Assembly: GCA_020630735.1 (NCBI GenBank)
Contig: JAHDIP010000003.1
Coordinates: forward strand, 1 to 64,000
Direction of reading: 5' to 3'
Origin: Saprospiraceae bacterium
GTDB lineage: Bacteria > Bacteroidota > Bacteroidia > Chitinophagales > Saprospiraceae
Length of the DNA stretch: 64,000 nucleotides
A program made the translations under genes and the position numbers. The notes under the pieces are model-generated. The model did not search any database. It had not been told where the DNA came from and saw only the letters and a program-made list of their open reading frames with translations. Shown piece by piece: positions 45,415 to 48,004 of the stretch; the first letter of the stretch is position 1; every line of letters begins with the position of its first letter.

Positions 45415-45762
45415 ATGAAGTTGGAAAATACAAGGGCGCAAATGAGAAAAGGGGTATTAGAAATGTGCATCTTATCCATCATATCAGAACAGGAAGCATA
45501 TCCATCAGATATCATTAAGAAGTTGAAAGAAGTAGAGTTGATAGTGGTAGAAGGCACATTATATCCCTTACTTACACGCTTAAAAAATGCTGGCTTATTA
45601 CATTATAATTGGAAGGAGTCCACTTCAGGACCTCCCCGAAAGTACTATCACATTACAGAAGAGGGCAAAGCGTTTTTGACAGGATTGATGGGCACTTGGG
45701 AACAATTATTACATGCAGTAACACAGGCAACCAAAAATATAACGGATAAAAAAACGAAGTAA
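45415..45762 (+). CDS. PadR-family transcriptional regulator
   Basis: 115 residues, a minimal PadR winged helix: MRKGVLEMCILSIISEQEAYPSDIIKKL, the VVEGTLYPLLTRLKNAGLL recognition part, GPPRKYYHITEEGKAFL (wing) and a C-terminal dimerisation helix. It is cytoplasmic and commonly represses its own operon. ATG 45415 is 5 nt past the -7 box, so translation may begin on a leaderless mRNA. The PspC gene follows after 98 bp, a pairing seen in many Bacteroidota. A palindromic element begins at its stop codon. Confidence 0.9.
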   Translation: MKLENTRAQMRKGVLEMCILSIISEQEAYPSDIIKKLKEVELIVVEGTLYPLLTRLKNAGLLHYNWKESTSGPPRKYYHITEEGKAFLTGLMGTWEQLLHAVTQATKNITDKKTK

Positions 45763-45860: not shown

Positions 45861-46550
45861 ATGAAGAAGGTATTCAATATTAACTTAGGAGGCTACCCAT
45901 TTACCATTGATGATGATGCATACGAACATCTCAATAGTTATCTGAAAACGATTCATAACCATTTCAAACAATCGGAAGGGTACGAAGAAATCACTTCGGA
46001 TATCGAAGGGCGAATGGCAGAGCTTTTTGAAGAACGCTTAGAAGGGCGTACCATTATTACGATGAAAGATGTAAATGCGGCAATCTCAATAATGGGAACA
46101 CCTGAAGATTTTGGTGCCGAGCCTATTGCTGAAGAAGTGAATAATGATACCGAAAAAATAAAAGAGACAAAAAAAGGCAAACGTTTATATCGAAATATGG
46201 ATGATGAAGTAGTCTCTGGCGTTTGTTCAGGTATTGCCGCATACTTTGGCGTGAGCGATCCATTATGGATTCGCTTAGTCTTCATTATTTTAGTGGCGAG
46301 TTCTGTAGGTTTTATTATTCCGTTGTATCTTATTCTTTGGGCCGTGTTGCCAAAAGCAGAAACGGCTGCTGACCGATTAGCGATGCAAGGCAAACCAATC
46401 AATGTTTCTAACATTGCTAAAACAGTAGAGGAAGAAGTAGAACATATCTCTGGAAAAATTTCAGAGCTAAGCGAAGAATTTAAGTCAAAAAAAAAAGTTT
46501 TGGCGGAACTAAAGGAAAAAACGCCCTTTCCAAAGGGGTATCTTTCTTAG
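45861..46550 (+). CDS. PspC-domain protein, N-terminal part (before a frameshift)
   Basis: 229 residues as read. The first 95 are an N-terminal domain usual for Bacteroidota PspC proteins (MKKVFNINLGGYPFTIDDDAY, SDIEGRMAELFEERL, VNAAISIMGTPEDFG). The PspC domain (about 110-172) has LYRNMDDEVVSGVCSGIAAYFG, DPLWIRLVFI and a membrane helix. At an A10 run (46487-46496) the frame should move by -1; without that the product ends after a few unrelated residues (PFPKGYLS). With the shift it continues into the membrane and C-terminal part at 46496-48004. PspC proteins are linked to envelope stress; the role here is inference. Confidence 0.8.
   Translation: MKKVFNINLGGYPFTIDDDAYEHLNSYLKTIHNHFKQSEGYEEITSDIEGRMAELFEERLEGRTIITMKDVNAAISIMGTPEDFGAEPIAEEVNNDTEKIKETKKGKRLYRNMDDEVVSGVCSGIAAYFGVSDPLWIRLVFIILVASSVGFIIPLYLILWAVLPKAETAADRLAMQGKPINVSNIAKTVEEEVEHISGKISELSEEFKSKKKVLAELKEKTPFPKGYLS
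46487..46496 (+). other. A10 homopolymer at the frameshift of the PspC gene
   Basis: Ten consecutive A residues contain the slippery motif A-AAA-AAA followed by G. The upstream frame and the downstream coding frame differ by -1, so re-reading one A, or one extra A in the DNA, would restore a single open reading frame of about 715 codons. Confidence 0.75.
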
Positions 46551-48004
46551 GTCGTATCTTTTCATACCTCATTCGGTTTGTAAATCTTATTTGGAAACCC
46601 ATAATTTTATTTATAGCATTACTACTGATTATTGGTTTAGCTCTTACATGGGTTTCACTGATAATCAGTTTTGTCTTTGCCCTTCCATTAGCCAATTATA
46701 TAGCTGTCGGTTCCAAGTGGGTTACGATATTAGGAGCTATTAGTCTTTTTATAAGCGTTGGCATCCCTCTTTTAGCACTTATCTTTTTCTGTATTCGTAT
46801 CATTTTTGGTTATCGTATAGGGCGTTATATTAATGCAGGTATGTGGTCATTTTGGTTGGTAAATTTAATTACTTGTATCGTAGTTGGTGCAATGCTTGGT
46901 CGTCAATTTAATCAAGGTTCAAGAATTGATTCTGACGTTGATTTATCAGAAATCACTTCCGACACAATAAATATCTTTGTCGAAGAAGATCAATTTAGCG
47001 AAGCGATTACAATCGGAGATTTACGAATCAATGACGAATCATTAATCGTAAATAAAGTTAGATTGAATATCAAGAAAAGTAAAACGCCAGACTTTAAGTT
47101 AACTCAAAGAACACGCTCTAGAGGTAAGTCGCAACAAGAAGCTTCTCAACTCGCAAAAACGGTTAATTATGACTACAAGATCGAATCGAATACACTAAAT
47201 TTTCCTGCGAATTTTATGTTGTTGAAAGGTGAAAAATGGAGAGGACAAAATGTAGAGTTTATCTTAGAAGTGCCTGAAGGAAAAACAATTAAACTTAATA
47301 AGCATGCCTCTTACAGTCTTAATAATTTTGATTATGCTGAAAACAACCGCACACCTTGGCGATACAACGAAAACCAATGGCAAATGGGAAGCGAAGGTAT
47401 GACTTGCCTTGACTGTCCTAAGCCTACAGACTTAGATGCTTTTTATGACTTCAGCGATTTTGAAAATCTAAGTATTGATGGAAAAATGAAAGTGTATGTT
47501 GATAGAGGAGACTATAAAATTCGCTTATCTGGAAAAGATCGTTACAAAGATAAAGTCGATTTTTTCAAAGTTGGTAAAACTTTAAATGTAACAACTGAAT
47601 TAGATCATTCTAGAGATATTAGCCTCTATGTTACGATGCCTTCTTTAAAAGGATTTACGAGTGATGAGACCGAAGATATCCGAATAAGAGGCTTTAAAGA
47701 AAAAACGATGTCGATTAGAAATGAAGGTCGCCAAGATATAAAAGCCCATATCGAAGTAGATTCTTTGTTGCTAAGTCTTCGTGGATCGCAGGAAGTAGAT
47801 GTTAAAGGAGTAGGAAAATACCTAAGAGCGGATTTGAAAAAAGGAGCTGATCTGGATGCCGAACATTTTGAAGTACAACACGCAAAAATTGTAGCAGAAA
47901 GAAGAAGCAACATCAATGTTGCTGTTACCGAAACACTTCAACAGACTTTAGACGAAGATGCAAAAATTTCAGTCGATGGCGATCCTGTAATTATAGAAAA
48001 TTAA
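46496..48004 (+). CDS. PspC-domain protein, C-terminal part (after the frameshift)
   Basis: Read in the -1 frame from the A10 run, this gives about 500 further residues. About four membrane helices come first (KGVSFLGRIFSYLIRFVNLIWKP, IILFIALLLIIGLALTWV, a third with ISLFISVGIPLLALIFF and a fourth after ATG 46841). A soluble C-terminal half follows (DLSEITSDTINIFVEEDQFSE to the end), with repetitive beta strands like the DUF2807/GIN adhesin fold (SLRGSQEVDVKGVGKYLRADLKKGADLDAEHF). There is no start codon between 46496 and 46841, and ATG 46841 would begin inside the membrane region. Independent translation is therefore unlikely to give the proper protein. Confidence 0.72.
   Translation, partial: SFGGTKGKNALSKGVSFLGRIFSYLIRFVNLIWKPIILFIALLLIIGLALTWVSLIISFVFALPLANYIAVGSKWVTILGAISLFISVGIPLLALIFFCIRIIFGYRIGRYINAGMWSFWLVNLITCIVVGAMLGRQFNQGSRIDSDVDLSEITSDTINIFVEEDQFSEAITIGDLRINDESLIVNKVRLNIKKSKTPDFKLTQRTRSRGKSQQEASQLAKTVNYDYKIESNTLNFPANFMLLKGEKWRGQNVEFILEVPEGKTIKLNKHASYSLNNFDYAENNRTPWRYNENQWQMGSEGMTCLDCPKPTDLDAFYDFSDFENLSIDGKMKVYVDRGDYKIRLSGKDRYKDKVDFFKVGKTLNVTTELDHSRDISLYVTMPSLKGFTSDETEDIRIRGFKEKTMSIRNEGRQDIKAHIEVDSLLLSLRGSQEVDVKGVGKYLRADLKKGADLDAEHFEVQHAKIVAERRSNINVAVTETLQQTLDEDAKISVDGDPVIIEN

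Follow-up and report, generated by a model that had tools for sequence, protein, structure and literature searches.

Organization of the PspC locus

The window, a 64,000-nucleotide stretch of a Saprospiraceae bacterium contig, carries a PadR-type regulator gene followed by a PspC gene whose coding sequence is divided between two reading frames at a run of ten adenines. The features of the locus are as follows.

45415-45762, + strand: PadR-type regulator gene directly 5' of the PspC gene (PF03551, E 1.6e-20)
45861-46550, + strand: predicted short product of 229 aa, with HAAS-like N domain, PspC domain and long C-terminal helix
46179-46358, + strand: PspC domain PF04024, residues 107-166 (Pfam E 6.5e-20)
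46487-46496, + strand: A10 slippery run, end of the common coding part, in the register TC(A AAA AAA AAA) GTT
46497-46550, + strand: tail and stop of the 0 frame, for the case without a slip
46496-48004, + strand: downstream half, -1 frame, which would be joined to the N half by one extra A in the mRNA or by a -1 ribosomal slip
46511-46909, + strand: LiaI-LiaF-TM_PspC membrane region PF22571 (Pfam E 2.4e-11)
47036-47422, + strand: Toast-rack_PspC-Cterm PF22744 (Pfam E 1e-29)
47456-47986, + strand: DUF2807 / head GIN domain PF10988 (Pfam E 8e-22)

The frame that starts at 45861 reads TCA AAA AAA AAA GTT across the run and terminates at a TAG codon (46548-46550). The -1 frame continues uninterrupted from the run until its stop at 48002-48004, and its earliest ATG, GTG or TTG is found at 46841, after 114 codons without a start. 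The original prediction had proposed that a run of ten A at 46487-46496 splits the PspC gene into two coding halves, offset by -1, that meet at the run. Both points were confirmed: ten adenines were counted at exactly these positions, and Pfam domains were detected on both sides, PspC in the upstream frame and TM/Toastrack/DUF2807 in the downstream one. A gene of the serine beta-lactamase family (PF00144; 48037-49293 of the window, same strand) lies directly 3'.

Pfam searches placed the PadR gene next to the PspC/Toastrack gene, the arrangement that defines the HAAS-PadR-PspC-Toastrack module, and the locus appears to be the PadR/HAAS/PspC/Toastrack stress module of Ravi et al. 2024 (PMC11237479). 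The PadR-type regulator is the probable partner of the HAAS domain. An N-terminal HAAS match (PF22564) was obtained in 15 of 32 homologues (best E 8.7e-9), that of the window protein being weak (E 0.075), and a Foldseek comparison of the N-terminal model with the PDB gave no significant match (best E 0.88). In a model of residues 1-208 (pTM 0.46; overall arrangement uncertain), a helix spanning residues 182-207 ends just before the run, and the site would therefore lie at a domain hinge.

Conservation of the run among homologues

The frame relation of the two halves and the maximal length of the A run where they meet were measured in 151 homologous loci, mostly of Saprospiraceae, taken from whole genomes within the order, with one genome per species. 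The halves are in frame in 98 genes, while the downstream half lies in the -1 frame, as here, in 50 and in the +1 frame in 3; because the loci are related by descent, these counts, and those that follow, are not independent. Comparison of the locus in relatives, which the original prediction had suggested, showed that 112 of the 151 loci carry A9-A12 at the equivalent position: each of the 53 split genes does so, as do 59 unsplit genes. Across all genes with the run it falls at residue 201-236 (median 214). The length distribution is discontinuous: 59 in-frame genes carry A9, A10 or A11 and the remaining 39 carry A7 or less, A8 being found in none. The run is conserved, with a threshold of at least nine adenines. 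The 39 homologues (of 151) that have no run of nine or more would appear to get by with the long form only, which counts against the slippage reading.

Named records with the run belong to Saprospiraceae and include the type strain and isolate Lewinella cohaerens DSM 23179 (A9, split); one split gene comes from a single-contig genome of 7.5 Mb (G085). The idea that the site is a general trait of Bacteroidota was rejected, as the homologues from Flavobacteria and other Bacteroidota are, isolated cases apart, mostly plain in-frame fusions with no A9 at residue 201-236. PspC genes of the Flavobacteria type (L239-L266) have an in-frame A8-A9 at a conserved NIEKK motif, at about residue 183, with no length threshold. 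In one split relative (L058) the upstream (0) frame ends at a TAA stop made by the A11 run itself. This gene misfits the slippage reading, since slippage would apparently not rescue it, and it may represent an error or a decaying copy.

The original prediction also held that a true A11 would remove the anomaly. This did not stand: in-frame relatives with A11 have the same device, so a true A11 in the window genome would not abolish the site.

Nucleotides rather than peptide are preserved at the site

Away from the junction, the coding sequence of the same genes amounts to 303 kb and contains no A run longer than 8, a length reached four times. Lysine codons are AAA in 70% of cases, and AAA-AAA-AAA encodes none of the 22 Lys-Lys-Lys stretches outside the junction. 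The run is present in 22 genes with a GC content of at least 50%. Moreover, 11 genes retain A9-A10 while coding for two lysines only (for example GAA AAA AAA AGC), and so it is the nucleotides, not the peptide, that are preserved. A need for Lys-Lys-Lys at the peptide level was rejected on these grounds, with AAA used exclusively at the site versus 0/22 elsewhere and the 11 two-lysine genes in addition.

Runs of ten adenines are scarce in the window's own genome, with 71 overlapping matches on both strands of 6.6 Mb, and of the 30 that we examined, most are not within long open frames or sit at their edges. One in-frame A10 (L296; G000:C125, around 6877) occurs within an open frame of 956 aa, with what seems to be the last part of an adenylation domain on one side and a membrane segment on the other; it is possibly a second slippage gene.

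Selection on the downstream half and switching of registers

Between pairs of split genes, the downstream half gave dN/dS values of 0.05-0.22 where dS could be estimated, and pairs of unsplit genes behaved alike. By this measure, purifying selection of the type expected of translated sequence acts on the downstream half when the gene is split. In the split relatives the distance from the run to the nearest start in the downstream frame has a median of 40 codons for any start and 60 for ATG. Given this selection and the distance of the start codons, translation of the downstream half most likely continues from that of the first.

On a tree of the 151 proteins, a quick tree with many weak deep forks, a minimum of 13 gains or losses of the run and 21 changes of register is required, and among genes with the run a minimum of 16 switches between in-frame and out-of-frame. 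All three registers occur within a single genus (g84). The two out-of-frame registers stand at 50:3, for which a binomial test that ignores ancestry gives p 5.5e-12. The stop of the 0 frame in split genes is mostly found 21-22 codons past the start of the run. When one A was added to in-frame genes with the run, a stop followed within 10 codons in 95% of them, versus 36% for the in-frame genes that lack it and 53% when positions were chosen at random, these groups not being matched for ancestry.

Related lineages also contain stand-alone short HAAS-PspC genes of about 204-216 aa accompanied by PadR, which often end in SKKK and have no downstream half (L180, L185, L190, L195, L248 and others); PadR-like open reading frames lie 5' of these loci. 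The short form can therefore stand by itself.

Which process would join the two halves

The site brings together a homopolymer of at least nine, conservation beyond the needs of protein or composition, and coding sequence under selection on both sides of a point where a slip restores the frame. The conserved slippery site in this membrane-stress sensor is real and, we consider, very probably programmed. The reading we favour, with a probability of roughly 70%, is programmed transcriptional slippage of the dnaX/tssM type, by which a single gene would give two proteins, one short and one long. In many bacteria slippage by RNA polymerase is seen once a run reaches about nine A's (Baranov et al. 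2005, PMC1088944), and the minimum of nine at the PspC site matches this length and points to RNA polymerase. Its main rival, which we regard as unlikely, is programmed -1 ribosomal frameshifting (or sliding of ribosomes on AAA lysine codons) at A_AAA_AAA on a homogeneous mRNA. Every run of nine or more contains this heptamer in frame, so a ribosomal -1 slip would yield the same two products, and in E. coli reporters the frameshifting frequency was 10% on A7, 40% on A9 and 63% on A11 (PMC3711429). The 50:3 bias is likewise consistent with it, and cannot separate one added A from a ribosomal -1 slip, because either rescues the favoured register. However, ribosomes slip already on A_AAA_AAG or A7 (PMC3711429), and split genes with A8 or less are absent; in addition, three genes require the opposite shift. 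Nor were the usual stimulators apparent. An SD-like motif near the run was found in 14 of the 53 split genes versus 21 of 53 for a control stretch, and RNA structure up- or downstream of the run showed no excess over control stretches. The hairpin CCCTT-TCCA-AAGGG is present at 46524-46537, with an unremarkable local fold (z -0.42) and no enrichment of structure in relatives; the original prediction was right to dismiss it, and a hairpin or SD stimulator was rejected. The heptamer that it had put forward for a ribosomal slip is a possible site, with the minimum of nine A and the absence of stimulators favouring RNA polymerase.

The original prediction had also left room for a contingency switch and for a sequencing error. 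Replication slippage toggling the long form between cells would suit the mutability of A9-A12 runs, the register changes on the tree (at least 21) and the variation within one genus. Such a DNA-level locus is nevertheless quite improbable, since both out-of-frame registers would be OFF and should be about equally frequent, yet they stand at 50:3, and since different genera retain the off-2 A10 state together with a downstream half under strong selection. Still less credible is an error of assembly or sequencing in a plain fusion gene that is truly in frame. Homopolymers are error-prone and in-frame relatives exist, but 53 split genes from independent assemblies, among them the L. cohaerens isolate and the single-contig genome, share one site and the 50:3 register, and an error leaves the conserved run in the 59 in-frame genes unexplained. 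With the run in more than 100 independent assemblies, error was rejected as a general explanation. The downstream half might instead be translated alone, as a second gene, or be decaying as a pseudogene. The ATG at 46841 could begin a protein of 387 aa, and stand-alone short genes do occur; this too is very improbable, as such a start would cost most of the membrane region, a conserved start is absent among the split relatives, and purifying selection covers the whole downstream half. Of the options originally listed, programmed slippage has strong support from conservation, codon choice, the length threshold of the run and purifying selection on the half that follows it.

Proposed mechanism

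Under programmed transcriptional slippage, the A10 run would be where transcripts slip, at the hinge of a gene for an envelope-stress sensor (PadR plus HAAS-PspC-TM-Toastrack-DUF2807). RNA polymerase would realign on runs of A9 or longer and produce a mixed pool of mRNAs. The templated message with ten A would give the 229-aa HAAS-PspC protein, ending no more than about 20 codons past the run, and messages with one extra A (or two fewer) would give a full protein of about 710 aa with the membrane, Toastrack and GIN domains. In sister species with an in-frame gene the roles would be reversed, the long form coming from the templated mRNA and the short form from the slipped one. Since the site would work in reverse in these species, both forms would be made whatever the register.

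We infer that the slip takes place during transcription, that the cell makes both proteins and that their ratio is of importance; the short HAAS-PspC protein might, for example, tune PadR signalling by the long sensor. More tentatively, the whole family could constitute a dual-output stress sensor in which polymerase slippage sets the ratio of short regulator to long sensor independently of the DNA register, a generalization that we put forward with considerable reserve. If it were true, conditions that alter polymerase slippage would feed directly into PadR-controlled envelope stress signalling.

Comparison with known systems

To our knowledge, there are few examples of conserved slippage in ordinary chromosomal genes beyond IS elements, dnaX and secretion genes. 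The PspC case extends over dozens of genera, concerns a signalling protein and involves switching between in-frame and out-of-frame genes. Because of this switching, automated annotation likely labels many such genes as pseudogenes or errors. A literature search found nothing linking PspC to slippage or programmed frameshifting; the survey by Sharma et al. (2011) of bacterial genes that are disrupted, and the supplements of papers, lay outside this search, and an earlier mention of a PspC cluster is possible.

In E. coli dnaX, a -1 ribosomal frameshift takes place on A_AAA_AAG, where A6G suffices and SD and stem-loop stimulators are used. The PspC gene resembles it in its prediction of two proteins per gene and differs from it in the minimum of A9 and in stimulators that are not enriched.

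The domains of the locus, the N-terminal one being HAAS-like, and its 5' PadR gene are those of the HAAS-PadR/PspC/Toastrack envelope stress modules, and the frame shifting and two isoforms predicted here for PspC are not mentioned in the passages compared here (Ravi et al. 2024, PMC11237479). The present analysis offers testable isoforms for a module so far defined mainly computationally.

A closer parallel is dnaX of Thermus thermophilus, whose A9 is a proven transcriptional slippage site according to its citation in PMC1088944 and PMC3711429; two-ORF dnaX genes with A9-A10 are also known (PMC3711429). As in these genes, the PspC site consists of A9-A10 on the sense strand at a domain hinge, with a predicted short and long product, and in-frame and out-of-frame registers are found among relatives. 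The same device is present in dnaX of this lineage: dnaX of the window's own genome (L267, G000:C198) has A9 at residue 379, A9-A10 occurs at about residue 372-442 there and in nearly all readable relatives (L300-L327), and two relatives (L316, L319) have a dnaX whose reading frame is split immediately past A10. Unlike the dnaX clamp loader, PspC is a membrane stress sensor, its site is mostly restricted to Saprospiraceae and its products are predicted from our analysis.

The closest worked example is tssM1 of Citrobacter rodentium, where an A11 run undergoes about 20% transcriptional slippage and an extra A restores the C-terminal domain (PMC4256274). SD motif and RNA structure are lacking in both cases, and in tssM1, as predicted for PspC, a membrane protein is truncated past a stretch of A, one more A brings back the C-terminal part, and two length variants result. 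Conservation of the PspC site extends over dozens of genera, in contrast to the tssM1 site, which stands almost alone among tssM1 homologues. The PspC site probably joins the dual-output genes of the dnaX/tssM kind as an additional case.
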